Positions 7,378-47,952 of a stretch of 64,000 nt of DNA are shown here, one piece after another. The position numbers were made by a program, and so were the translations under genes. Each line of letters opens with the position of its first letter. The first letter of the stretch is position 1. The DNA lies in the IMG/VR virus record IMGVR_UViG_3300034073_003245, positions 1 through 64,000 of that record. One strand, written 5' to 3'. This stretch comes from a virus. The notes beneath the pieces are model-generated. The model had not been told where the DNA came from. It made no database searches and saw only the letters and a program-made list of their open reading frames with translations.

Positions 7378-8589
7378 CTAAAAAGGTGGTGAATATGGAT
7401 TGCAGAAGGTCGGACCAACTGCTCTATAAACGCCAGTAAGAGTACATCTTTCTACATTTGTGGGACCGTAGTACCCATCGGGACACGGAAATGCATAAGC
7501 ACCAGAAGAGTTTGTATAGACCCAACCTACTCCTCCGACCACATTAGATGCTACATACTGAGATAGCGCGCCACCGACGACAGTAAGAACATCGTATGTT
7601 ACATATTCGTCAACATCAACCCAACTGTCGGAAGGAACACAAACCCCCGTAGTGTCTACCCAGGTGGTTGTTGTACACCCAATTGTTGACCAGTCTGGAT
7701 ACGGGGTGTAGTTCCAAGCAATTGTTGACCAGTCCGGATAGGCAGTATAAACCCAGGAAATTGTTGAAAAGTCTGGGTATGCAGTATAAACCCACGGAGT
7801 GACCCATACTGTTTCTGAGCCGCCATCAGAGTATGTCCATGCGGTGTATGGTCCGGCAGTACAAGATACTGAAGGATTTATAAAACGAGTTCTTGATCTT
7901 GTCCTGCTTCTACTGCGTGTTCTTGTTCTAGTTTTTGATCTTGTCCTAGTTCTGCTGCGAGATCTGGTTCTAGTTCTTGTTTTATATGTACTTCTTTTTT
8001 GCTGTCTATTGCCGCAATCGCCACAAACGAGTTGCTGAGTGCATGTTGTGTCGCATCCGTTATTGCCAACATAAGAACCGTCATTGCAGGTGTATAGAGT
8101 CTCAGAACAAGTGCCGTCATTACAGTCCGTTTGTGTTTCAATACAGTCAGGACATCCATTTGTATAGTTTTCTGTTATTGTTTCAGAACAACTTCCGTCT
8201 GTACATGTGTTGTCAAAACACGTTCCATCAGTACACGACGTATCGGTCTCAATTGTCCATGGAATGTTGTTAGAAGAAGCCGTGCTCCATTCGCTCCAGC
8301 CATAAGCATTGAAAGCCCGCACTCGTATTTTGTATCTGTTTGTGTTGTATTGAGTGAGTATTTGATGACTCAACGAAGTAACTTCAGTTCCAGCAGACCA
8401 GGCACCATCGTTGGTTGAAACTTGATATTCGTACTTAGTTATATCAAGCCCATTGTCGGCTGGCTTTGTCCAGTTGTAAGTTGTATTTACACAGCCGTTT
8501 GAAACTGTTGGTGCAGCAGGAACAGAGGGTACTCTGGCAAATCCAGAATAACCCTTAGACGAACTTCCTCTTCCCGCTATAAAAGGCAC
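7378..8589 (-). CDS. Tail fibre with FnIII domain, Cys-rich part and Arg-Thr/Arg-Ser repeat
   Basis: 403 residues from GTG 8589. Residues about 20-115 form a fibronectin type III-like domain (P-A-A-P-T-V-S-N-G, then Y-K-I-R-V-R-A-F-N-A-Y-G-W-S). A Cys-rich segment with repeated C-x-D/N-G-x-C units follows (about 118-190). Next is a strongly basic stretch of alternating Arg and Thr/Ser (about 202-235). Three copies of a W-x-Y-T-x-Y-P-D-x-S-T-I unit follow (about 260-305). The end is Cys- and aromatic-rich. It is probably a host-contacting fibre or adhesin. Confidence 0.7.
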   Translation of the reverse strand: MPFIAGRGSSSKGYSGFARVPSVPAAPTVSNGCVNTTYNWTKPADNGLDITKYEYQVSTNDGAWSAGTEVTSLSHQILTQYNTNRYKIRVRAFNAYGWSEWSTASSNNIPWTIETDTSCTDGTCFDNTCTDGSCSETITENYTNGCPDCIETQTDCNDGTCSETLYTCNDGSYVGNNGCDTTCTQQLVCGDCGNRQQKRSTYKTRTRTRSRSRTRTRSKTRTRTRSRSRTRSRTRFINPSVSCTAGPYTAWTYSDGGSETVWVTPWVYTAYPDFSTISWVYTAYPDWSTIAWNYTPYPDWSTIGCTTTTWVDTTGVCVPSDSWVDVDEYVTYDVLTVVGGALSQYVASNVVGGVGWVYTNSSGAYAFPCPDGYYGPTNVERCTLTGVYRAVGPTFCNPYSPPF

Positions 8590-11717: not shown

Positions 11718-12929
11718 ATGAACGAAAATTTGCCCTTGCAAAATATCCCGTCAATTCCGTCAAGGGCTGAATTAAAAGAAAATACGATATCACGCAAGTC
11801 TCTTGTCAAAATATCAGTAGACGCTAGTGCGGATTCCTGGATAGCGAAAAGTATGTTTGGCTATTCAATACTTAGAAATGAAGACTGCAAAAATATTCTA
11901 TCTGATTCAAGGTGGCTTTCTGCAGTTGGGTTACTTGCTGACCTAAATCCATACACAACGCAAGAGTTTAAGACAAGAAGAAAAACAGGGATGTTGGCAG
12001 TAGACGGCGAGCCACACAAAAAACTTAAAAAAATAGCAAATGCGGCATTCTCAAAAGATGCCGTAATGAAAATGGATTCAGAAATTAATCGCACTTTTTC
12101 GGAACTTATTAATTCATTTAGCCCAGGAGATGAATTTGACATATCGCAAAAAATCTTCAAAAAATTTCCAATACTTGTCATATGTGACATGATTGGACTT
12201 CCAAGAGATAGGGCTGACGACTATTCGCGATGGGGTGAAAACCTGCTGAAAAATTGGGAAAACAACTATCGGAAGTCAACTGAAGAAATATTGACATCAC
12301 AAAAAGAAATGGATGAGTACATTCTCTCGCTTATTGAAGAGCGCCGAAATAATCCAAAAGATGATTTGATATCCAGGCTTGTGCATCCAGTTGACAAAAG
12401 TCAAAATATGAGCGATGAAGAGATAATCACATTTATTGAGACAATAACAACGGCAGGAATTGACACCGTTTTTCATCAACTCGGCTCAGTTTTCCTTCTT
12501 ATTGTAAACAAACAACAAATATGGAATGAATACAGAGACAACCCTCAAAGCAGGTCATGGATAATTGATGAGGTTATAAGAATCACAAACGCCGTTCACG
12601 AAACGGGCAGAATTGCCTCACAGGACATCAACTATAGAAACACGATGTTCCCCAAAGGAACGATAGTTTTTTTAAATATCACATCCGCAAACAGGGATGC
12701 TTTTGAGTTTGAAAACCCTGAAGATATTCAGGATGGAAGAAAGCCAAACATTGCATTTGGATGGGGCGCTCATAGGTGCTCCGGTCTTTTTATGGCAAAA
12801 GCGGAGATAACAGCCGCAATGAACTACATAGTAGAAAATTTGCCCAACATAAAAGTTATTGACACGCCTCAATACACCAAGTCAAATGCAGCGGTATACG
12901 GCCCGTCTTCAATAATGGTCAGAATTTAG
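11718..12929 (+). CDS. Cytochrome P450 monooxygenase
   Basis: 403 residues, full bacterial P450 length. All key blocks are present: I-helix A246-G247-I-D249-T250 (oxygen activation), K-helix E285-V-I-R288, and the heme loop F347-G-W-G-A-H-R-C354-S-G with the heme-ligating cysteine. It should hydroxylate or otherwise oxidise a small substrate using electrons from a host ferredoxin; no redox partner lies nearby. It is the only plus-strand gene between 3.6 and 53.9 kb, starts 16 bases from a divergent gene, lacks an obvious ribosome site and ends tail to tail with the next gene. This looks like an inserted cargo gene. The base composition is visibly AT-rich. Confidence 0.95.
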   Translation: MNENLPLQNIPSIPSRAELKENTISRKSLVKISVDASADSWIAKSMFGYSILRNEDCKNILSDSRWLSAVGLLADLNPYTTQEFKTRRKTGMLAVDGEPHKKLKKIANAAFSKDAVMKMDSEINRTFSELINSFSPGDEFDISQKIFKKFPILVICDMIGLPRDRADDYSRWGENLLKNWENNYRKSTEEILTSQKEMDEYILSLIEERRNNPKDDLISRLVHPVDKSQNMSDEEIITFIETITTAGIDTVFHQLGSVFLLIVNKQQIWNEYRDNPQSRSWIIDEVIRITNAVHETGRIASQDINYRNTMFPKGTIVFLNITSANRDAFEFENPEDIQDGRKPNIAFGWGAHRCSGLFMAKAEITAAMNYIVENLPNIKVIDTPQYTKSNAAVYGPSSIMVRI

Positions 12930-13591
12930 AGTTCACTGATAATCTGTTCAAAAGTTTTTCCGCTGTAGTCAACCGTCAGCGAGATAACCCAGTCATTAAA
13001 TGAAGACGATGCCGGTGGATAAGGGTGCGGAATCTTCTTATAGTCTGGGTCGCCTTTTAGAAACCTAACTAAGTGCATATCCGGCATTGAGTCAATTTCG
13101 TCAATGATTGATTGAGGAGGACTTAGCCTTTCAAAAATCATCTTTGAATAGATGGCCATTGGGTGTTCTGAGTTGAATTCCCCACCAACAAGTTGTGACC
13201 ATTCCCTCATTGTTTTAAAAAGTTGAATCATTGATTTTGCGGCCCACATGGTTGATGGAGTTGGGTCGGACTGAATGTCAAACCATGACTCCATCTCTAA
13301 ATATGTAATATAGAATTCAGGCTCACAATTGATGACATGCTCGTATTTTGTAACATTATTGACTTCCACAACGAAGTCAGAAACTTCAGACCGCTTCACA
13401 AACCCATGTCCGTGACTCTGGTACTCAGTGCCTTCCGTTACCAGAACACCCGTGTATGAGAGATTGTCGCATCTTTCCATGTTTTGGAGAGAGTCAGGTT
13501 TTTCCTCTGTAAGGAAAACGCATTTTTCAATGAAGAAAATCCCTCTGTCATGGGGGTTGGAATCTCTTAGAAGTGTGTCAATATCAAGCAT
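12926..13591 (-). CDS. Unknown protein of the halogenase cassette
   Basis: 221 residues from ATG 13591, which overlaps the previous stop by 8 bases; an earlier in-frame start would overlap more. It contains H-G-H-G-F near residue 65 and E-M-E-S-W-F, and is aromatic-rich with a mixed alpha/beta look. No catalytic motif is recognised with confidence. As last gene of the tightly coupled run that includes the halogenase, it may belong to the same modification pathway. Confidence 0.6.
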   Translation of the reverse strand: MLDIDTLLRDSNPHDRGIFFIEKCVFLTEEKPDSLQNMERCDNLSYTGVLVTEGTEYQSHGHGFVKRSEVSDFVVEVNNVTKYEHVINCEPEFYITYLEMESWFDIQSDPTPSTMWAAKSMIQLFKTMREWSQLVGGEFNSEHPMAIYSKMIFERLSPPQSIIDEIDSMPDMHLVRFLKGDPDYKKIPHPYPPASSSFNDWVISLTVDYSGKTFEQIISEL

Positions 13592-13856
13592 TTTCAAGTT
13601 CCTCAATCTTGTTGATAACTACTTTTAGTTTATCAACATTGCGAGCGACGCTCATTTTTGCTAGATGCTCGTGCCTTGGTATGTTTTCAAAAGTTGCGGT
13701 TGCTTCATTGACTTGTTGTTCGTTTGTGTAATCAAAAGAATCCGGGTCAACACCTACAACAAGAAGATTCATATAAAGGTCCTTAATAAGAAGTTCCTTT
13801 ATTTTATTAAGCGCCTCGGCCCTGTCCTGTATAGTCAGAAAATTTGAAATATTCAT
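13584..13856 (-). CDS. Small helical protein, paralogue of the 17153-17386 gene
   Basis: 90 residues, helical. The motif V-G-V-D-P-D-S-F-D sits in the middle after a Leu/Ile-rich helix, and the same arrangement (V-G-A-D-P-D-S-F-D) occurs in the gene at 17153-17386. The two bracket the oxygenase/halogenase genes. They may be small chaperones or adapters for those proteins or for the fibres. Confidence 0.65.
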   Translation of the reverse strand: MNISNFLTIQDRAEALNKIKELLIKDLYMNLLVVGVDPDSFDYTNEQQVNEATATFENIPRHEHLAKMSVARNVDKLKVVINKIEELENA

Positions 13857-13864
13857 ACTTGCTC

Positions 13865-14656
13865 CTATTTTTTCAGTCTCAGTCTCTCAAGAATAGAATA
13901 CTTCCCTCTTTCGGTAAGGGCATTGTCTACCCTCACGCGTTCCCTCCTGTATGGAGCAGCAGTGCCCTCAAGAGGGGTTATGTGACCCATGCCAAAACCA
14001 GTGCTGGCCACAAATCTGTAATAAGACTCGTCATTGAATAAGATTTCTTTTGTATTTGACGAACGCTGAAATGGAATCACCATCATCAAGGGTGTTCCCC
14101 ATTTGATAGAAAAAGGAGAGTCTGTCTTAATATTTAAGACAATATTTGCTGTGTGGTAAAAGTCCGTATGAACAACGGCTGGGAGAACGTCGTAATTATT
14201 GTTTGGCTCCCATAGAACCGGCAGAAAAAGCGACGACCACCCAGGCGCTGTCTCAAATCTCCATGGATTAACAATCTTGGGATACTGGGCTTCTCTTGTT
14301 TTGCCGTTTCTGACATCGTTAATAGGACATCCCACGGCAGCCTCGTAATCAAACCCTTCTATTTTGGAAACATCTGTGCCGCCTGAAGCAAACGCAAAGT
14401 TTGCGCCCCTTGTTTCCCATCTTCCTTCATTACTCGGCCTAAAATCAAAATTTGTCCAACAGGGGATGGTGACCCCTATGTTATAGAAGTCATTTATTCC
14501 AGCGCACCTTCTTAGGGAGCCTGGATTTTTATGCAGTCTTTTAAACCAAGACGGATAGGTTTCAACAGAATTAATGAATGGGGGCATCTCCATCAGTCTG
14601 TTGTCAAGCGGGGTAATTCGTATTTGACCAGGCTTTACTTTGGGATTCTTCTTCAT
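13865..14656 (-). CDS. Conserved phage protein next to halogenase
   Basis: 263 residues from ATG 14656 (ATGA overlap with the halogenase stop; another ATG lies two codons upstream). It has a Trp/Pro/Asn-rich composition, with P-S-W-F-K-R-L, a G-S-L-R-R-C-A-G-I segment, V-T-I-P-C-W-T-N-F and F-R-P-S-N-E-G-R-W near the N-terminus, then a beta-rich body. I recall similar proteins beside halogenase genes in cyanophages, but cannot check. The role is unknown. Confidence 0.65.
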   Translation of the reverse strand: MKKNPKVKPGQIRITPLDNRLMEMPPFINSVETYPSWFKRLHKNPGSLRRCAGINDFYNIGVTIPCWTNFDFRPSNEGRWETRGANFAFASGGTDVSKIEGFDYEAAVGCPINDVRNGKTREAQYPKIVNPWRFETAPGWSSLFLPVLWEPNNNYDVLPAVVHTDFYHTANIVLNIKTDSPFSIKWGTPLMMVIPFQRSSNTKEILFNDESYYRFVASTGFGMGHITPLEGTAAPYRRERVRVDNALTERGKYSILERLRLKK

Positions 14657-16152
14657 GACCATTCATCCTCAATTGCGCTGAGTTGCCTCAATGCAACAGC
14701 ATGGTCAATGAGTTCATGGTTATGACGAGACTCCCTCATCTGTGCGGCAACATTTTCAACCTGCGTCCTAATGTGCAATCTGTCAATTGTCCTAGTAGAT
14801 GGCCCAGCGCTAAATACGCCCTGTCCTTGAGCGACATGAGCCATATGGGGAGTGTGGAAAAGTTCCATATGCAAATGAGGAACGTCGGTCCTGTTTGGGG
14901 GTCTCTCTGACCAGATATCAATAAGTTCCTGCAACTCTTCGTTAAGGGGCTTTTCCTTCATCGCCGCCCAGAACGCCGTGTCAGACCTATCGCTGTAGTA
15001 ATGCAGGCGAATCATTGTGAGTATGTTTCTCATAATCTCGCCATACGACTTATTGAAGTGTTTTTGTGACTTTGTGTACGAATGGTCATATGCCGCAAGA
15101 TAGGGAATCATCATTTTAATTTGTTGGATTGAAGAGCCGATGCTTGTTGCTTCTAACGGCTCAACAAAAGAGCCAGCAAGACCAATCGCAACACAGTTTT
15201 TTACCCATACCGAATCAAGGTATCCAGCGTCAAACTTGAAGTGTCTGTAGTTGTCTATCTTGTAGCCAGATATTTTTTCTGCTTCTTTAACAGCCTCATC
15301 TTCTGAACAAAAAGCGGAAGAAAATACATATCCGTTACCACGACGTTGCTGTGTTGGTATTTCCCAAACCCAGCCGCTATCGCCTGCTATCGCCCTTGTA
15401 TAGGGGCGAATTTGACCCGATGGGTCGGACTCTGTTGGAAACGCAATTGCTGAGTCTGTTAAAAGATACTCGCTAAAAGAATTCCACTTCTGATTTCCGA
15501 GTTTTTCCATCAAGACTCTTCTGAACCCAGAAGCATCAAACCAGAAATCGGCCTCAACTGAATCTGCCATATCCGTCTTAACAGATACAATGTTCCCGCT
15601 TTCCGCGTCAAGAACTATGTCATTGACTATTCCATCAACAAACTTAATTGACCTCTTAAAACAAAGCGACACAAAGTATTCATTCAGTTTATTCGTATCA
15701 AAATGAAACTGGTTTGTGGACCTATGGAGTCCATGAACACGTATTTGATTTCTGACAAGGCCTACGGAAGTTGTCTGGTCGGTAAATAATTTTTCGTTCT
15801 CAATGAAATATGCGTAGGAGGCAAACGCGCCCCAGGCAAATATTTCATCAACTTCACTAACGCTGTGGAAATACTTTGGCGTATGAGTAGTCCAGTTTTC
15901 AAATCGGATTCCATACTTGTGGGTTGCGTCGGTTGAGACAATCATCTCCTCAAGGTCTATGTCGCAGTGCTTCATAAACTCAGACCAATGCTCAGTGCTT
16001 CCCTCACCAACACCAATAATGCCTATTTGAGATGAAGAAATAATAGTTACGGGCGCACTTGGAAATGCTTTTCTCAGCATTAGTGCGGTTATTAGTCCTG
16101 CTGTGCCTGAACCAACTATGCCAAATGAAAGAGGTTTTGTTTTTTCCATCAT
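14653..16152 (-). CDS. Flavin-dependent (tryptophan-type) halogenase
   Basis: 499 residues from ATG 16152. Motifs in order: FAD-binding G-S-G-T-A-G-L (14-20), G-V-G-E-G-S-T (47-53), Lys79 in H-K-Y-G-I-R-F-E-N-W aligning with the essential lysine of PrnA/RebH, W-V-W-E-I-P near 260 (the W-x-W-x-I-P signature that blocks monooxygenase activity) and F-V-E-P-L-E-A-T-S near 330. All active-site hallmarks are kept. Such enzymes use FADH2, oxygen and halide to halogenate electron-rich carbons. The cyanophage enzyme VirX1 is a characterised viral member with a preference for iodide. The gene is coupled by ATGA overlaps to the 2OG oxygenase upstream and an unknown downstream. No flavin reductase is present; the host would supply FADH2. 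Confidence 0.93.
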   Translation of the reverse strand: MMEKTKPLSFGIVGSGTAGLITALMLRKAFPSAPVTIISSSQIGIIGVGEGSTEHWSEFMKHCDIDLEEMIVSTDATHKYGIRFENWTTHTPKYFHSVSEVDEIFAWGAFASYAYFIENEKLFTDQTTSVGLVRNQIRVHGLHRSTNQFHFDTNKLNEYFVSLCFKRSIKFVDGIVNDIVLDAESGNIVSVKTDMADSVEADFWFDASGFRRVLMEKLGNQKWNSFSEYLLTDSAIAFPTESDPSGQIRPYTRAIAGDSGWVWEIPTQQRRGNGYVFSSAFCSEDEAVKEAEKISGYKIDNYRHFKFDAGYLDSVWVKNCVAIGLAGSFVEPLEATSIGSSIQQIKMMIPYLAAYDHSYTKSQKHFNKSYGEIMRNILTMIRLHYYSDRSDTAFWAAMKEKPLNEELQELIDIWSERPPNRTDVPHLHMELFHTPHMAHVAQGQGVFSAGPSTRTIDRLHIRTQVENVAAQMRESRHNHELIDHAVALRQLSAIEDEWS

Positions 16153-16730
16153 TGGAACCACGTTACCATTGAATACTTAGTTCCTTTTTGGACGGGATGA
16201 GCGATGTGTGTGTATGGAAAGTTGCTTGGAAAAAGAATCACTGAGCCAGGGTCAAGTTTTGTTGAAAAAGTAAAATTGACAAATTCAAGTTCTCCGCCAA
16301 CTTCTGCTGTCCCGAGGCTTGCTACAAGACTAAAAACTCTTTTATTTTCTGGATGGTGGTCATGGTGCGCTTTGTATTCGGCCATTCCTGTGTATTTAAG
16401 GATTGAGATAAGTTCATGGCTTCCGCCGCTAAGAGAATGGTCTTCAACATAGTCATTGACGACCTCAATGCAGGGGGCGTATATCTCAGACCTAAAGATT
16501 TGAGAAAGTTCAGTCATTCCATATGGGGGCAAAAGACTTGTTGCCATGCAACTCATTGAGGTTCTGTGCTTATTGAGATGTCCAGAACCTCCACCAACTC
16601 TTGAATATTCCCAGAAAAGTTCTGTTTCTTCATCATTTTCTATTGATTGTTCAAGTTTTTGAATGAAATCTTTAGGGTCAAAAACATCTTTGTAAATACT
16701 GATGCACGTTGCTGGATTTTCAAAAATCAT
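16149..16730 (-). CDS. 2-oxoglutarate/Fe(II)-dependent oxygenase (prolyl-4-hydroxylase type)
   Basis: 193 residues. The iron-binding H-x-D occurs in K-A-H-H-D-H-H (about residue 120), the distal histidine in T-H-I-A-H-P-V (about 175) and the 2OG-binding basic residue in K-G-T-K-Y-S. G-G-E-L-E-F and G-S-V-I-L-F-P between them are standard for the double-stranded beta-helix of P4H-like oxygenases. It could hydroxylate a protein side chain or a small molecule. ATGA overlaps on both sides couple it to the halogenase, so the two probably act on one substrate or in one pathway. Confidence 0.88.
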   Translation of the reverse strand: MIFENPATCISIYKDVFDPKDFIQKLEQSIENDEETELFWEYSRVGGGSGHLNKHRTSMSCMATSLLPPYGMTELSQIFRSEIYAPCIEVVNDYVEDHSLSGGSHELISILKYTGMAEYKAHHDHHPENKRVFSLVASLGTAEVGGELEFVNFTFSTKLDPGSVILFPSNFPYTHIAHPVQKGTKYSMVTWFQ

Positions 16731-17146
16731 AAGACACCAAAAGTTCCTTCTGCAATAACAGCGTCCCCCTCTGACAGTATTTTAAAACTGTATTGACCTT
16801 CTGTATTCATTCTCACCCTAAACTTTGCAGAATGACTTTCTCTGACTCTAGGAGCAAAGACGCTTTCATTCCCGTGCTCATCCGTAATCTTAATAAATAC
16901 AGACGAAGGAAAAGTAATAAACTCATTTGTGTAGTCAATAGGATTTAAGAATCCCTTTTTAACTTCGCGTTTATACGACAGAATATCTGTTTCCGGTATT
17001 TGAATAACCGTAATTTCAGTAATATCCGTCTCTTCTTGTTTCCCGATTTGGATTCCAAGTTGCAAATCTTTTGACAAAGATACTGCTATCTCTGGTATTT
17101 TGCCTTCTTCAAGTTTTGCAAATGGGACGTAAATTTGCCTTTTCAT
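16727..17146 (-). CDS. Unknown beta-rich protein of the halogenase cassette
   Basis: 139 residues, rich in alternating hydrophobic and charged residues typical of beta strands (F-I-T-F-P-S-S-V-F-I-K-I-T), ending in A-V-I-A-E-G-T-F-G-V. It could be a carrier, a small virion protein or the substrate of the enzymes; no family is recognised. It overlaps the oxygenase start by 4 bases. Confidence 0.6.
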   Translation of the reverse strand: MKRQIYVPFAKLEEGKIPEIAVSLSKDLQLGIQIGKQEETDITEITVIQIPETDILSYKREVKKGFLNPIDYTNEFITFPSSVFIKITDEHGNESVFAPRVRESHSAKFRVRMNTEGQYSFKILSEGDAVIAEGTFGVL

Positions 17147-17152
17147 GCCCCA

Positions 17153-17386
17153 TCACGATAGAGAAGTAATTTTTTCCTTTACGAGATTGATGGAACTTAT
17201 CAGTTGCTTCAATCTCATCACTTCACCCTCTGTTGCGGGTGCCCTTAGTGATTCAATCTCTGACTCATCAAAGGAATCTGGGTCAGCACCGACACGAATA
17301 AGTGTGTTGTAAATCTCAAGCGCAAGTGTTTTTTCTGCTGCTTGTAGGGACTGCAGTTTTTGTTCGTTTGTGAGATTGAGTTCCAT
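17153..17386 (-). CDS. Small helical protein, paralogue of the 13584-13856 gene
   Basis: 77 residues: a Leu/Ala-rich helix, then R-V-G-A-D-P-D-S-F-D-E-S, then a second helical part. It matches the 13584-13856 protein along its length, especially at D-P-D-S-F-D. It is the first gene of the cassette and follows the histidine-rich fibre gene by 7 bases. Confidence 0.65.
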   Translation of the reverse strand: MELNLTNEQKLQSLQAAEKTLALEIYNTLIRVGADPDSFDESEIESLRAPATEGEVMRLKQLISSINLVKEKITSLS

Positions 17387-17393
17387 TTTTTTC

Positions 17394-19148
17394 CTATTCG
17401 TTTATGAGTATATATGCCGAACCATTTTCAGCAGAAAAGTTGTCGCTGGAATCCAGTAATCCTGCTCTTGTGTCGTATGTTATCGTACCGGCGACACTAT
17501 CACATACTAGCAAAATAGAACCTCCTCCGCCAGCGCCTCCCCTTTTCCCCGGCTGTCCGTCAGTGCCTGCGCTTCCAGTTACTGCTGGAGCGGCAGCCCC
17601 CCCAGCCCCTCCAGCCCCTCCAGCCCAATGGCCATCGGGCTGGGCGGTAAAGGTTTGTGGGTTGGCGTGGTGTGACCATCTGTTGGCATTGAGATATCCG
17701 TTGCTATAAGTATGGGGACCATGGTGGTGCCCACCGCCCACCTGCATACCGCCTCCCTGGTTTGTCCCGTTTCCTAGGTCGTTTCCGTTTGCATGACCGT
17801 GTGTGTGCGCCGGATGGGCGTGTCCAGCGTGAATGTGCCCATCGTGGCCACCGGCATGCACATGCTCAATTCTTCCATGGAATGTGCCGTTTGTTGCCGG
17901 ATGACTGTGCTGTCCGGCATGGTTCCGTTTTGCGTGAGAATGGATAACTGAAGGCCAGTTGTGGGTGTGTGTAATGCCGCCGTGTCCGTCGTTTGAGTGT
18001 GGATGGTGTCTTGCGCCGTAGTGGTGATAGTGACCGGAGTTGAAGTAATGGCCGCCGTGGTAACTAGCCGCGATGTGGTAGGCAGCATTTTTATAGTCGC
18101 CAGGAGAATGAAAAGCAGGCTGATGGGTTCCACAGCAGTGTGGATGCGGATTTACTGTGTGAGCATGAAAATCCGAGAAAATTGCATAGCCGTGGTGATG
18201 ACTGGGATTGTGTGTGTAAGTAAGTGGATTCGCTACAGGGGGAACGTGATAGGCCAAATTTGGCGCTGGGGTTCCAGAAGACCCAGCAGTACCAGGATTG
18301 CCAGTTTGTCCTGGAGAGCCAGGTAGACCAAGTGAGCCATCGGAACCCGACATCCCTAGTGAAATAAATTTTCCACTTCCGACTATGTGCTTTGCCACTA
18401 CGCAAACAACTCCACCGCCATAGCCTGGAGAACCGCCTGCTCCACCTAGACCGCCAGCACCTCCGAGACCAGGCGTCGCCCCTGTTGCACTTCCTGCACT
18501 TCCTGCACTTCCTGCGCCGCCGGGAACCCCAATTGTCAGCCTGTAGGGGTTAACTACGCTGTTCACGCTTCCTGTCGCTGCTCCCGCAGCGCCGGGGGAA
18601 CCTTCTTTCCCGGGCCAAGTATCCAAATCTGTTAATGCTGGAGTTGTTTCTCCAGACTGCCCATCTGCGCCCTGACTTCCGCCTGTCCCACTAGAGCCGC
18701 CACTAATTGGGGTTATCCCGGATGAGACATCAAAAAATACACCACCCGACATTGCATTAATGTCTTTGTACAAATAAGAAGGTAGTGCCGTTGCTCCAGG
18801 GCTGGTGTAACCACCGCCCTGGCCGCCGGTCCTGTATGTGATGACGCCAGAAGAATTGCCACTTACTGTGCCGTCTGGAACTGGACTGTCTGGCTCGTAA
18901 ACAGTGTTTTCACTAATGCTTCCTATCCCTATAAACCCATTGAGTGTAAGGGTTTCTTTTACAAAAACCCTGTATCCATTTGTTGACAAAAATGCGCCAC
19001 TCTGTACATCTAGGGTGTTGTAGTACATATCAGATGTTAGTGATACTGTTGAACCAGATGGTATTACTACGTCTGAATCTAGCCCGCTACCATAGATTTG
19101 GTCATTTCCAGACCTCTGAAGATATTCTGGCCTATTTAATCTTTCCAT
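17394..19148 (-). CDS. Histidine-rich, glycine-rich tail fibre
   Basis: 584 residues. The N-terminal part (1-75) has a strand block (D-M-Y-Y-N-T-L-D-V, G-Y-R-V-F-V-K-E-T-L-T-L) shared with the next fibre gene. A Gly/Ala/Ser collagen-like part follows (about 100-290). Residues about 300-507 hold roughly 46 histidines, many as H-x-H or H-H-H. A Gly/Ala run and a strand-rich end (I-L-L-V-C-D-S-V-A-G-T-I-T-Y) close the protein. In T4 gp12-type fibres, H-x-H pairs bind iron inside the trimer; this one has many times more. Virion attachment and metal binding are likely. Confidence 0.75.
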   Translation of the reverse strand: MERLNRPEYLQRSGNDQIYGSGLDSDVVIPSGSTVSLTSDMYYNTLDVQSGAFLSTNGYRVFVKETLTLNGFIGIGSISENTVYEPDSPVPDGTVSGNSSGVITYRTGGQGGGYTSPGATALPSYLYKDINAMSGGVFFDVSSGITPISGGSSGTGGSQGADGQSGETTPALTDLDTWPGKEGSPGAAGAATGSVNSVVNPYRLTIGVPGGAGSAGSAGSATGATPGLGGAGGLGGAGGSPGYGGGVVCVVAKHIVGSGKFISLGMSGSDGSLGLPGSPGQTGNPGTAGSSGTPAPNLAYHVPPVANPLTYTHNPSHHHGYAIFSDFHAHTVNPHPHCCGTHQPAFHSPGDYKNAAYHIAASYHGGHYFNSGHYHHYGARHHPHSNDGHGGITHTHNWPSVIHSHAKRNHAGQHSHPATNGTFHGRIEHVHAGGHDGHIHAGHAHPAHTHGHANGNDLGNGTNQGGGMQVGGGHHHGPHTYSNGYLNANRWSHHANPQTFTAQPDGHWAGGAGGAGGAAAPAVTGSAGTDGQPGKRGGAGGGGSILLVCDSVAGTITYDTRAGLLDSSDNFSAENGSAYILINE

Positions 19149-19154
19149 GATTCA

Positions 19155-19874
19155 TTACACCAACTGCATGTAGTTGACTGTTCCTGGAAAATCGCCCGTC
19201 ACATCAGTTTCTATAGAGTACGGTAGTTGTGGCGCGCTTGAAACTATAAGTATTACTCCGCCTCCCGCTGGAGGTGTAGCAGGGGCGGCTATGGAACCAA
19301 AGCCAGATATATAGCGGGCAGCAATAATAACTACTCCGCCACCAGCCTCCCCTGAGCCACCGGCACCCCCTCTGAGCCACGTCGGTCCACCGGATGCCGT
19401 TATGGAGTAGCCCTTAATTGCTTGATGGGGGACAGTCCACCACGACGTTCCACCCAGGGATTCCAGTGGTGGCGTTGCAGTTGTCGTATTTCCAGAACCT
19501 CCCAGCGAATGGGTTACCGACTGCAAAGCCGCACCCCCCTGGTAAATACTTCCAGGGGTTGACCATCCTGATGTAAAGCCAATAATGGAGGTGCCATGCA
19601 TCATAAGCATATTCTTGACAAATATTCTGTACCCCTTGGGGGCAAGACGTACTTGGTCATTTATGGTCAAGTTATGAAAGTACATGTCTCTCGTCATTGA
19701 GTAGACATTGTCATCCTGCCCCTCTGAGCCTGGAACCATTCCAAGCACTGTATCTATGCCATTAAGTACGGCATTTCCGTCAGAACCAGTTCCATAAATA
19801 GGGTCAGCAGCATCAATGAAGTCATTGATGTCAGCCTGTTTGTTGATTCTTGAAATGCTGTTGAAGTACGTCAT
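19155..19874 (-). CDS. Tail fibre, paralogue of the histidine-rich fibre
   Basis: 239 residues. D-M-Y-F-H-N-L-T-I and G-Y-R-I-F-V-K-N-M-L-M match the N-terminal block of the 17394-19148 protein, and G-G-G-V-V-I-I-A-A-R-Y-I matches its middle. The histidine-rich domain is absent, so that domain was either gained by the neighbour or lost here. It probably forms part of the same fibre or a simpler version of it. Confidence 0.7.
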   Translation of the reverse strand: MTYFNSISRINKQADINDFIDAADPIYGTGSDGNAVLNGIDTVLGMVPGSEGQDDNVYSMTRDMYFHNLTINDQVRLAPKGYRIFVKNMLMMHGTSIIGFTSGWSTPGSIYQGGAALQSVTHSLGGSGNTTTATPPLESLGGTSWWTVPHQAIKGYSITASGGPTWLRGGAGGSGEAGGGVVIIAARYISGFGSIAAPATPPAGGGVILIVSSAPQLPYSIETDVTGDFPGTVNYMQLV

Positions 19875-19875
19875 A

Positions 19876-20217
19876 TCACACCGTTGTTGTTACGACTCCA
19901 GAAATAATCAGGTTTACTACATCGTCGTCAGAAGCGCTCGCCCAAATTTTTTCGCCATTAGATATCGGCAAACTTGTCATAACCATGACTGTTTCGTTGG
20001 CGCTAATTGAGAATTCGCTAAAAAACCTGTCGGTCGCAGCAGAAGTTGTAGCAGCACTGTCCGTTAAAGCAAGGCTTACGGTCACAGTGCTTGCGCTTGT
20101 GTTGCACAGCATTACCTGCGTAATCAGAACATCGGTTGACGAAGGAACTGTATAGACAACTTCGTCGGTTGCGTCAATAGGAGTTTTGACTAATCTTGTT
20201 TGTACTGGGATAGACAT
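19876..20217 (-). CDS. Small virion protein (beta-sandwich)
   Basis: 113 residues, Thr/Val/Ala-rich with alternating hydrophobics (V-L-I-T-Q-V-M-L-C-N-T-S-A). The pattern resembles small fibre or decoration proteins and is like the gene at 26504-26836, which also sits between fibres. It is probably an adapter or capping subunit. Confidence 0.6.
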   Translation of the reverse strand: MSIPVQTRLVKTPIDATDEVVYTVPSSTDVLITQVMLCNTSASTVTVSLALTDSAATTSAATDRFFSEFSISANETVMVMTSLPISNGEKIWASASDDDVVNLIISGVVTTTV

Positions 20218-20225
20218 TTTTTACC

Positions 20226-22271
20226 TCAGGTCTTGATGATGTAGTTAAGGACTAAGTACGGTTGCAGGTTATTGTGCGCCGCTCCGCCACCAGTGTTTTG
20301 GTTTGTTGCGGTTGTGTTGTTTGTGGTAAACGAGTGAGAGTGGTCACCGGCTGATGAGGTATTGGCTAGTCGCGCGTAGTGATAGAAACCATATGATCCA
20401 GCAGGACCCATTCCGCTTGTGTTATAAGCCTCGTTGTATGTGTGAGTGTGCGCCCCCGCTGTTGAAGTTGTACCAGAGTGCGCGTGGGCATTCTGAGTGT
20501 GGGTGTGGCTTGGCATTTCATTGACCGTAAGCGTGTGCGTTTTTGCACCACCAGTTTCTCCAAGACCATCAAATTCTGCCTGACCAGAGTCAAAACCGAC
20601 AGGTATGCGCCCCTTTAAGTTTGGTATTCCAAATGTCGTAGAACCGTCACCAGAACCGTAAGTTGTGCCAATTACCGCAAACAGTGCTGCATAAGTCGTT
20701 CTTGAAACATTGCTACCGTCGCAGATCAACCACCCAGTGGGAGCCGACGATGCAGCGAACTGCGTGATTGATCCCGATGGAACACCTAAATTTGCGTTAA
20801 CCCACCCAGATCCGTCATACCCAATAACCTGGCCAGATGTAACGCTTGTAATTGTCACATCACCAACATCGTCAAGAGAGTTAATTGTGGGAACAGAATC
20901 TGGCACCCAGGAAGTACCGTCAAACTTTAAGAAATCTCCAGTATCTGGAGCCGAGGCAGAGACGTTGCTGATGTCGTCAAGAACAACAGTTCCCATCGCC
21001 GTTGAATGGTCGTGAGAATCATGGCGAGCAGTGTTTAGATATTGGGTGTGGTCGTCATCCCCAAGACCAGTCATATTTCCGTGGTCAGAGACTGGGACTG
21101 TTGGTATTCCGAATCCACCACTGATGATTGAGCGAAGGTCTGTTACTTCCCTAAACGCTGCCTTGGGGTTGTTTGTATACGAATCTTTGCACTCGTATAT
21201 AACTTTGTACAGCGGTCGGAACTCAACAACCGGAAAACCATCAAGGTTTAGACTTTCATAAAACGCTGCTTCTGCTGCGCCTTTTTCTCCGTATGATGCC
21301 TGTCCAAGAACCGCAATAATTGGGTAGTTGAGATTGTTGGTAGCAAGAATATAAGATATGCCAAAACTGTTATTTGGCAAATCTGGTTTTGACCATACTC
21401 CGCCAGAAAAGGCATTGTATGCAGGGAGACTTTCTCCTTCTTTTAATGGGAAGGTGGTCGGAGCGTCAGCGACCCATTCACCAGCGCCAATTTTGTAAAA
21501 GACCGGAATCTCCGCAGCGCCCTGGAGAACCTGCTCCCATGTGTCCGCAGTGGGAGTGGCTGAATGAACAATGTCAACCTGAAGATCTTCGTCAAAGAAT
21601 GTTCCGTTAGCGATGTCAAGTTGTGCATCAGAGTCGGAAGTTCCGTCACCAAGTAGCGTGTATGCCGAAGCACCAAAACCATTAGCGATAGCCGCACCAC
21701 GAGTTCTGTGTAGATACTCATGTGTCGCCCAGTCAAGAGTAATACCGTGTCTTTCGTCTGCGAAGAAATACGCTTTATCGTCTGTGGCGTTCCAATAGAC
21801 GTAGGCAGTTGGCGTGTCTTCATCCCATGTAAAAAATGTTGTTTTATAAGAAAGAACACCGCTTGCATTAAAGTAGATGTAGTAAAGGCCAGTAGTGTCA
21901 GGAATCGTGACGGTTTCTGTTGTGGTCTTTACGTAGCGTACGCCCTTGCACCAGACCGTATATGACGTTACGCTTGGGGCAATAGAAAATGTTCTTGTTG
22001 CCTCATTGAATGAAATAACGCTTTCTGACTTATCTTCGTGGCCAATTGGTTCTGAATCAGCGCCAGTTGCATTAACCCACTCTGAGCCGTCGTACTCTAG
22101 GAATTCTCCATTTTGTGGCGTTGTTATGCCAACATCAGTCAGATCATCAAGCGGTATTCCTACGCCGGTTCCACTGACAAGACGCCAGGCACTGCCGTCC
22201 CACTTCCAGGTCTTGGAACCGGCAGTAAATTCGTCGTTTACGGATGGTGTATTTGGGAAGTCAATAGCCAC
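20226..22271 (-). CDS. Tail fibre with C-terminal phage collar domain
   Basis: 681 residues from GTG 22271, which overlaps the mini-gene stop (TAGTG). The N-terminal module A-I-D-F-P-N-T-P, then W-K-W-D-G-S-A-W recurs in the next fibre. The middle holds repeats of the S-L-D-D-V-G-D-V type. The C-terminus is a textbook collar domain: G-W-L-I-C-D-G, G-I-P-N-L-K-G-R-I-P-V-G, then E-M-P-S-H-T-H and several H-x-H pairs, ending N-L-Q-P-Y-L-V-L-N-Y-I-I. It belongs to the T4 gp12 short-tail-fibre class, whose tip binds the host. Confidence 0.85.
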   Translation of the reverse strand: MAIDFPNTPSVNDEFTAGSKTWKWDGSAWRLVSGTGVGIPLDDLTDVGITTPQNGEFLEYDGSEWVNATGADSEPIGHEDKSESVISFNEATRTFSIAPSVTSYTVWCKGVRYVKTTTETVTIPDTTGLYYIYFNASGVLSYKTTFFTWDEDTPTAYVYWNATDDKAYFFADERHGITLDWATHEYLHRTRGAAIANGFGASAYTLLGDGTSDSDAQLDIANGTFFDEDLQVDIVHSATPTADTWEQVLQGAAEIPVFYKIGAGEWVADAPTTFPLKEGESLPAYNAFSGGVWSKPDLPNNSFGISYILATNNLNYPIIAVLGQASYGEKGAAEAAFYESLNLDGFPVVEFRPLYKVIYECKDSYTNNPKAAFREVTDLRSIISGGFGIPTVPVSDHGNMTGLGDDDHTQYLNTARHDSHDHSTAMGTVVLDDISNVSASAPDTGDFLKFDGTSWVPDSVPTINSLDDVGDVTITSVTSGQVIGYDGSGWVNANLGVPSGSITQFAASSAPTGWLICDGSNVSRTTYAALFAVIGTTYGSGDGSTTFGIPNLKGRIPVGFDSGQAEFDGLGETGGAKTHTLTVNEMPSHTHTQNAHAHSGTTSTAGAHTHTYNEAYNTSGMGPAGSYGFYHYARLANTSSAGDHSHSFTTNNTTATNQNTGGGAAHNNLQPYLVLNYIIKT

Positions 22272-46274: not shown

Positions 46275-46823
46275 TTATCTGTCAGCGTTTGGCGGTTTTT
46301 CAGCAGTAAAGCCAGAGTCAACAGTACCCGCTGGCGCCTCAACTGGAACCCATGCGCGAGAGTATTTGTGATTAGCCACATCTCTGTGCTTTAAAAGGGA
46401 CCCGTCCATCATTAGTTGATACTCGTCGGTCTTCATTTGAAGCAAAGAATCCATGTCTTTTTTGTCATATTTTTTTGACCTAATGATGTTTCTAATAATG
46501 CTGGAAACTGGCTTGGCAACCATGGTTGTTCTGCCCCTGTTGAGACGTATGTGCATCAATTGTGCGTCAATGCTGTCGCAGTCAAAAAAGATCACAGGGC
46601 AACTACCTCCGCATGCATCCTGTATGCGTTTTTGAGACTGCCCCAACAAGAGTCTCTCATTCCCATCAATAACTATATTTGTTGACGACTGGACAATCAG
46701 TGGAGAAAGAATCCCGTAGTCAGCCAACGAACGAGATAGGACCAAAAGATCCGGGCGAAGAATGTGGGTTGATTTAAATGGGGCAACATGAAGTTCCGCG
46801 AAGTCAACATAATCAATCTTCAT
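46275..46823 (-). CDS. ParB-like nuclease-domain protein (small)
   Basis: 182 residues. The ParB N-terminal fold is visible: L-H-V-A-P-F-K, R-P-D-L-L-V-L-S-R-S-L-A-D-Y-G, then S-P-L-I-V-Q-S and V-I-D-G-N-E-R-L-L, with L-N-R-G-R-T later. ParB/Srx domains bind CTP or ATP, or cut DNA. The usual G-x-R-R is replaced by G-N-E-R. It overlaps the PAPS-reductase-like gene by 11 bases. A Pro/Ala-rich tail follows. Confidence 0.75.
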   Translation of the reverse strand: MKIDYVDFAELHVAPFKSTHILRPDLLVLSRSLADYGILSPLIVQSSTNIVIDGNERLLLGQSQKRIQDACGGSCPVIFFDCDSIDAQLMHIRLNRGRTTMVAKPVSSIIRNIIRSKKYDKKDMDSLLQMKTDEYQLMMDGSLLKHRDVANHKYSRAWVPVEAPAGTVDSGFTAEKPPNADR

Positions 46824-47952
46824 TTGCTAGTTCCTGTTCTGCTGCTTTCTGTCTAAGAGTGTGCGCCTTGGTCTTTGGCCCGACCGGCGCTGCTGCGGCA
46901 ACGTTTATTTCATTGAGAAGAAGGTTCCGTATAAGCCAGTTGATCGGGTACGAGTACGGGTCAGCGAGATGCTTTTTTCTGAAGTCGGCTACATAAGCCT
47001 TTGCGCGACGTTCATTATCTATTCCAAGCATGTTTTCATCTATGCATCGCTTAGCGCCATCAAAACCGTCATTCGCGTAACTCTCAATTAATTTCTCAAC
47101 ATCAAAGTCTTTCCACCATCTGCGCTGAGCATCAATTTCCGGCCAACACTCCCAGAGCCTGTCGTAAAACTCTGGCTCGGTGGCTATTACGTCACCAATC
47201 CTACGGATAGCGACAGAGTGGAGGGGAATACCGACACGTGTGTTGCTCCCAGTTAGCGCAGCAACATCGTAATACTCGCAATACTCCGCATTATGCTCTT
47301 CTGAAATAAATTTCAGAACATCATCCATTTGCCAGTCATAGATTACTTTTGCAAACTTCAAAGGTATTGACTTCTTCATTCTGTACGGCGAAACAATGTA
47401 GTTTTCGTGCAGTTTTTGAACCAGAGAACGGTATCTAACCATGGACTCGTTGGCTCTAACGCCAGTGATAAAAGCAACGCTCCCCTTCTTTCCCTGCATT
47501 GTGTAGTAGTCAACCATTTCCGGCAATCCCTCGTCTGAGGTGAGCCCAAAATGCTCTGCAGTGATAGCCCACTCAGGTATCGGTCTAACCCTGCGACCCT
47601 CTTTATATCTCTCATTGCTCCACAGAACAACAGGCTGTCTAGCCCCAAGAACCCATACTTCTGCCAGATATGGCAAGCAGTACCACTCCATATCAACCCA
47701 GTCATATTGCCTGACTTTGTTGGCATACTCGTAAATCATGGGGCTGACCATTTCTTCATCTCTAAAGATGACCTTTACTGGTCCGAGCCCACGTTCTTCA
47801 TGCACTTCTTTTGCTAGATACAAAACGGCAGTGCTGTCTTTGCCCCCAGAAAACTGGACGCATACGGTGTCAAAGGAATCATAAACGTGCCTAATGCGCT
47901 GGCGGGCTGCTTCAACTACGTCTATGTCAAGAAACATCCTCTGTCTAGTCAT
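46813..47952 (-). CDS. PAPS reductase-like protein (IbrA/DndC relative)
   Basis: 379 residues. The PP-loop S-G-G-K-D-S (about residues 35-40) binds ATP, as in PAPS reductases, DndC and IbrA. F-R-D-E-E-M, G-V-R-A-N-E-S and R-I-G-D-V follow. The C-terminal half is rich in Trp, as in IbrA. The usual PAPS-reductase C-x-G end is not seen, so it probably does not reduce PAPS but activates a substrate with ATP. Its pairing with ParB-like proteins is the known IbrA/IbrB arrangement. Confidence 0.8.
   Translation of the reverse strand: MTRQRMFLDIDVVEAARQRIRHVYDSFDTVCVQFSGGKDSTAVLYLAKEVHEERGLGPVKVIFRDEEMVSPMIYEYANKVRQYDWVDMEWYCLPYLAEVWVLGARQPVVLWSNERYKEGRRVRPIPEWAITAEHFGLTSDEGLPEMVDYYTMQGKKGSVAFITGVRANESMVRYRSLVQKLHENYIVSPYRMKKSIPLKFAKVIYDWQMDDVLKFISEEHNAEYCEYYDVAALTGSNTRVGIPLHSVAIRRIGDVIATEPEFYDRLWECWPEIDAQRRWWKDFDVEKLIESYANDGFDGAKRCIDENMLGIDNERRAKAYVADFRKKHLADPYSYPINWLIRNLLLNEINVAAAAPVGPKTKAHTLRQKAAEQELANED

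Follow-up and report, generated by a model that had tools for sequence, protein, structure and literature searches.

Flavin-dependent halogenases (FDHs) of cyanophages have been known for about two decades, and one of them, VirX1, has been crystallised; enzymes of the VirX1 subgroup prefer iodide and form a trimer with an open active site. The proposals for what such enzymes do in phages include antibiotic protection, in the case of cyanophage prnA (PMC2984593), and production of a metabolite, in the case of the jumbo cyanophage S-SSM6a, whose halogenase cluster also contains carbamoyltransferases and sugar enzymes (PMC7824862). In the passages of a review that were consulted, VirX1 is given neither a biosynthetic cluster nor a natural substrate (PMC8407142), and no natural substrate is named in the papers covered here. 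In this work, we analysed a 64-kb stretch (the window) of the 85.7-kb virus record IMGVR_UViG_3300034073_003245 from IMG/VR, in which an FDH gene is part of a cassette adjoining two genes for glycine-rich fibre proteins, coll and f239. We propose, with a probability of roughly 0.55, that the cassette halogenates and hydroxylates the neighbouring fibre post-translationally.

The cassette consists of seven minus-strand genes at positions 17386-12926, in the order u77, u139, a 2-oxoglutarate (2OG)-Fe(II) oxygenase gene, the FDH gene, p7084, u90, and u226. A halogenase and a 2OG oxygenase had been placed here by an earlier note made from the sequence of this DNA, and both were recovered as open reading frames (ORFs) with the expected Pfam matches. 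The ATGA overlaps that it described are present at three junctions, u139/2OG (16730-16727), 2OG/FDH (16152-16149), and FDH/p7084 (14656-14653), and absent from two others: p7084 and u90 are 8 bp apart, and the overlap of u90 with u226 is of a different kind. The two small genes said to bracket the enzymes, u77 and u90, are indeed paralogues, since their products sort into one family and align better than shuffled sequences (Table 1). A complete cytochrome P450 gene converging on the cassette had been overlooked.

In relatives of the window, the module has a conserved order, f239-coll-u77-u139-2OG-halogenase-p7084. When the FDH was used as bait, Gly-rich f239 and Gly/His-rich coll were found directly upstream at 57 of the 60 untruncated loci of the close group (FDH identity of at least 44%). 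With p7084 as bait, and the FDH not used in the search, an FDH was present at 79/80 loci, the remaining locus being truncated. With f239 as bait, an FDH lay downstream of 52 of the 54 coll genes followed by at least 5.5 kb of sequence, and the exceptions were further coll-like ORFs in two loci (L220 and L228). Because IMG/VR contigs are redundant, these counts overstate the independence of the loci, yet they span halogenase identities of 46-79%. The fibre-cassette order is conserved in more than 100 contigs, and phages with the module include many from freshwater and marine settings. In one phage (L093, 4558-20747), the whole module is present as a tandem duplicate, and at several loci (L149, L160-L163) the cassette is inverted while the fibre adjacency is retained. 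The conserved gene order that the earlier note proposed to look for was thus found, and a cassette at random sites without fibres was not seen within the clade. As would be expected of genes for virion-protein modification, the enzyme genes are conserved beside a candidate virion gene, with coll/f239 as the proposed substrate.

The arrangement bears on the possibility that the product is a halogenated, hydroxylated small molecule (an antibiotic, a signal, or a host-protecting metabolite), and that the fibre locus is merely permissive for accessory genes. Nearly all studied FDHs, according to the review, use free indoles, phenols, or pyrroles (PMC8407142); the prnA (PMC2984593) and S-SSM6a (PMC7824862) proposals concern such functions, and the FDH cluster of S-SSM7 is comparable to that of S-SSM6a. 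An optional P450 also suits a tailoring pathway. The S-SSM6a cluster resembles the cassette in combining a phage FDH with 2OG and cupin enzymes, but it is a sugar/carbamoyl cluster, read as metabolite-producing, and is not described as fibre-linked. Moreover, no precursor-building, carrier, transport, or resistance genes were recognised in the window cassette by a Pfam scan; across FDH identities of 46-79%, inversions included, the cassette keeps one fibre pair as its neighbour, and the two are duplicated together; and halogenase-free relatives, described below, have an altered fibre insert together with protein-type glycosyltransferases. We consider a small-molecule product unlikely. The FDH and the 2OG oxygenase could also act on u77/u90, u139, or another virion protein instead of coll/f239. 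While u77 and u139 are conserved and the u77/u90 pair is duplicated around the enzymes, some loci (L020, L157) lack u139 or u77, whereas coll is always present, and no low-complexity, His-rich, or aromatic-rich stretch was seen in these small proteins by eye. We regard targets other than coll/f239 within the phage as very unlikely.

Judged by sequence, the catalytic motifs of the FDH are intact. Its match to the Trp_halogenase profile PF04820 spans positions 3-447 of 458, and its start is probably the ATG at 16152, within the ATGA overlap, rather than an upstream GTG. In an alignment of 36 phage halogenases with identities down to 22%, G17, G19, and G22 of the GxGxxG dinucleotide motif are invariant, as is the catalytic lysine K82 (equivalent to PrnA K79; 36/36). 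In the window, the WxWxIP motif has the sequence WVWEIP; W264 and P269 are invariant, I268 is present in at least 90% of the sequences, and the second Trp is sometimes replaced by Phe. In the active-site Glu motif, E334 is invariant and E337 is conserved at 90% or above. Loss of the lysine or of WxWxIP in relatives, which the earlier note considered, was therefore not found in the clade. Compared with the PF04820/PHROG_2928 family as a whole (PrnA, RebH, VirX1), the enzyme is matched over its full length and has all of the expected motifs (dinucleotide, catalytic Lys, WxWxIP, EPLE); it differs in its fixed fibre module and in the EPLEA sequence of its clade, where PrnA-type enzymes have EPLES. 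The label “VirX1-type” given to it earlier is loose, since the nearest phage homologue is the P-SSM2 halogenase (40% identity) and identity to VirX1 is 26%, too low for close similarity to the VirX1 subgroup. The 2OG protein shares the general layout and HxD...H metal triad of prolyl-4-hydroxylase (P4H)-like oxygenases (PF13640, PHROG_61), with H122, D124, and H175 kept in 47/47, 44/47, and 46/47 aligned sequences, respectively, but matches solved P4Hs weakly (3itq/5hv0, E 0.01). Conservation of motifs across tens of relatives rules out chance ORFs.

The coll protein carries a His-rich insert at approximately residues 281-500 (residues 271-500 contain 45 His, 11 Tyr, and 2 Trp). At halogenase-positive loci, coll has on average 6.9% His, vs 1.6% in other proteins, and 3.2% Tyr. 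Between diverged pairs, the inserts resemble each other only as much as shuffled sequences do (0.34 in both cases), and their His content stays high (mean 18.5%, minimum 6.2%, using the crude bounds of residue 271 to 85 residues from the end). In the insert, composition is conserved, and sequence is not. A different picture is seen in distant, halogenase-free relatives of the scaffold, where coll contains 0-2.9% His and ~7% Tyr and has Asn/Thr/Pro/Tyr repeats. The 2OG genes and p7084 are retained at such loci, several of which have a PF11397 N-acetylglucosamine (GlcNAc) transferase gene (E 1e-26 to 1e-29) immediately after the fibre, in addition to 2OG enzymes; at some, a u77-like domain is found within ~290-aa proteins. 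PF04820 was found in 0/19 of the halogenase-free records, which may be incomplete. We tentatively suggest that fibre-decorating chemistry is swappable, with a common scaffold, a fast-changing low-complexity insert, and matched enzymes, and that fibre-linked phage halogenases, including VirX1, may have the phage's own receptor-binding fibre as their natural substrate. Just as tentatively, a His-rich insert would be paired with a halogenase/hydroxylase set, and a Tyr/Asn/Pro-rich insert with a hydroxylase/GlcNAc transferase set.

At loci L252, L262, L307-L317, and L347, the PF11397 transferase, 2OG oxygenases, and p7084 copies lie next to fibres that contain repeats such as NNNNAPTYGFTAG, and L252 additionally has a GT25 gene. 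These loci are candidates for a Skp1-like hydroxylation-glycosylation system for phage fibres. As in the Skp1 pathway of Dictyostelium and Toxoplasma, where a P4H is followed by a PF11397-type GlcNAc transferase, the sister loci pair 2OG oxygenases with PF11397 beside a Pro/Asn/Thr/Tyr-rich fibre; unlike the Skp1 enzymes, theirs are phage-encoded and fibre-linked, and the window has a halogenase where the sisters have the transferase.

Keeping modification genes linked to fibres is a known strategy, which lends some credit to the idea that the enzymes modify a component of the host surface (a cell-wall polymer, the S-layer, or a receptor) so as to mask receptors or exclude superinfection, and that they lie near fibres through shared host recognition. 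Glycosyltransferases and methyltransferases occur at some loci, and the S-PM2 FDH adjoins a putative S-layer protein. However, the insert composition itself tracks the enzyme set, the joint duplication involves the fibre, and no sign of export or membrane anchoring was noticed, although no systematic search was made. A host-surface target appears clearly unlikely.

If the fibre is the substrate, residues of the adjacent fibre polypeptide would be modified by the P4H-like 2OG oxygenase and by the halogenase, the latter supplied with host FADH2 and with halide, presumably during or just after synthesis of the polypeptide. The likeliest targets would be aromatic or imidazole side chains in the His/Gly/Tyr-rich insert of coll, and the modified insert would alter receptor binding or fibre stability. 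p7084, u77, u139, and u226 may be fibre-specific helper, scaffold, or assembly proteins, and the P450 could provide an optional further oxidation. The basis for the proposal is the intact catalytic motifs together with genomic evidence, i.e., gene order and fibre linkage, joint duplication, inversion with retained adjacency, and enzyme content that covaries with insert composition. Thus, the suggestion of fibre halogenation or hydroxylation made in the earlier note gains genomic support at this locus, though it does not extend to FDHs that other phages encode elsewhere.

Several points weigh against fibre modification. Neither coll nor f239 has a Pfam or PHROG tail-fibre match of its own. We know of no FDH that halogenates histidine, and His is not a universal target, because some fibres of FDH-positive loci are low in it (1.8-4%) and those of cyanophages reach ~4.5% at most. 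The FDH state changes once on the scaffold tree (100/98 support), so the covariation of His and FDH is a single contrast and no proof of co-evolution; for the same reason, a Mann-Whitney p of 2e-4 for His content was not relied on. Finally, the FDHs of S-PM2, S-MbCM6, S-SSM7, P-SSM2, HTVC008M, and S-H38 lie away from fibres, and thus not every phage halogenase is explained by fibre modification.

The setting of VirX1 in Syn10 has fibre, p7084, and 2OG genes in common with the window: VirX1 comes after Gly-rich proteins (22-35% Gly) and is followed by another FDH, p7084, and 2OG/JmjC enzymes in succession. S-RIM44, S-SZBM1, Sf-CH3, P-TIM40, and S-WAM1 are similar, with Gly-rich fibres followed by FDH and 2OG/cupin enzymes, and p7084 in several of them, while the S-SRM01 FDH is located between a tail fibre and the gp37-gp38 adhesin tip. 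A VirX1 bait yielded two loci only in IMG/VR, so the cyanophage evidence rests on annotated isolates. In marine contigs L062/L063, three tandem Gly-rich (31% G) proteins precede four FDH genes, p7084, and several 2OG genes. In Actinomycetia phage DSL-LC01 (L075), collagen genes are followed by an FDH that has diverged at GEG and WxWxIP, and then by a GT2-TPR glycosyltransferase.

The p7084 protein starts at ATG 14656 and is predicted to have the beta-clip fold of the dUTPase/dCTP deaminase superfamily. Its profile matches dUTPases (E 5e-4), as does its AlphaFold2 (AF2) model (E 6e-5); the model has 54 PDB matches at E <=0.001, and among the matches listed are dUTPases and one dCTP deaminase. 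A stretch resembling motif III, which includes D167, is conserved, and the remaining dUTPase motifs were not recognised by eye. The u226 family, which occurs in 226-aa and ~360-aa forms, has invariant R45, C46, E135, and W136. Its AF2 model is confident (pLDDT 84, pTM 0.85), but a Foldseek search found no PDB fold match at E <=0.001 and the only Pfam match was Fam20C at E 0.06, so u226 was given no function. The P450 gene, whose stop codon overlaps that of u226, encodes AGxDT (I-helix), ExxR, and FGxGxHxCxG (heme Cys loop) motifs that are invariant in 9 phage sequences. It occurs in 17 viral contigs, in 12 of which it adjoins u226 in the cassette, on either strand, and in the rest lies elsewhere; it is an accessory gene, not found in every relative. 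The window P450 shares 28-46% identity with the P450s that adjoin this cassette in other phages, and neither it nor u226 had a tblastn match among 50,697 annotated phage records. It is not the first phage P450, since one was reported in Mycobacterium phage Adler (PMC9405906).

The record is supported as that of an actinophage by a WhiB gene (PF02467, 55-246 of the window) and a TerL closest to those of Gordonia phages (44% identity), in line with the earlier note. Its mention of fibre genes likewise agrees with tail collar, Gp10_C, Baseplate_J, and PHROG tail-fibre matches near the cassette; tail genes in the window encode sheath, tape measure, Baseplate_J, and tail-collar proteins. A bacterial contaminant was ruled out: the virus record has terminase, portal, sheath, and baseplate genes, and p7084 occurs in just 3/84,980 bacterial and archaeal genomes, each time on a contig of a metagenome-assembled genome. 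Elsewhere in the window, a minor-tail-like protein (7378-8589, minus strand) contains long repeats of the types TRTRSRSRTR and TCxDGxC, which is unusual in a phage tail protein, and a phosphoadenosine phosphosulfate reductase-like gene (46813-47952, minus strand; PHROG_2302, E 7e-75) lies amid structural genes.

Table 1. Genes of the cassette and of the adjoining fibre locus (window coordinates).
Feature	Coordinates	Strand	Basis or remark
Cytochrome P450, 403 aa	11718-12929	+	PF00067 E 7e-23
u226, conserved protein	12926-13606	-	likelier start ATG 13591
u90, paralogue of u77	13584-13856	-	local score 77 vs shuffled maximum 51
p7084 (PHROG_7084), dUTPase-like beta-clip fold protein (predicted)	13865-14662	-	PHROG_7084 E 2e-21
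FDH, flavin-dependent halogenase	14653-16161	-	PF04820 E 3.8e-100, PHROG_2928 E 2e-105
2OG-Fe(II) oxygenase, prolyl-4-hydroxylase-like	16149-16730	-	PF13640 (2OG-FeII_Oxy_3) E 3.5e-11
u139, conserved cassette protein	16727-17146	-	same position in relatives
u77, small cassette protein, paralogue of u90	17153-17386	-	local alignment, same family
coll, Gly/His-rich fibre, proposed substrate	17394-19148	-	weak PF01391 collagen match
f239, Gly-rich fibre protein, scaffold of coll without the His-rich insert	19155-19874	-	conserved scaffold alignment
u113, small protein that precedes the fibre pair in many relatives	19876-20217	-	locus comparison
Tail-collar/short-tail-fibre protein, marks the fibre locus	20226-22271	-	PF07484 E 4e-24, PF21939 E 4e-10, PHROG tail-fibre families

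The enzyme families described here are already known; their fibre linkage and function look new, and no paper tying phage halogenases to fibres was found in the open-licence literature. The conserved link to Gly-rich fibres makes the question of the natural substrate directly testable. If fibre modification is true, it would answer what phage halogenases are for and would be the first case known to us of a virus particle halogenated by an enzyme; it would also be a new means of varying receptor binding without sequence change and would supply biotechnology with halogenases that act on proteins. Glycosylation of phage virions is already known, and PMC11256854 cites the capsid-glycosylating mycobacteriophages Che8 and Rita. 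There, too, phage enzymes alter a virion protein after translation, but the modification is a capsid glycan, whereas the one proposed here is a halogen or hydroxyl on fibres. The Nereis jaw protein Nvjp-1 (Birkedal et al. 2006, as cited in PMC13120676) is likewise a Gly/His-rich structural protein of a halogenated material; it is an animal protein with no known relation to an FDH, and the likeness is one of material, not of kinship.

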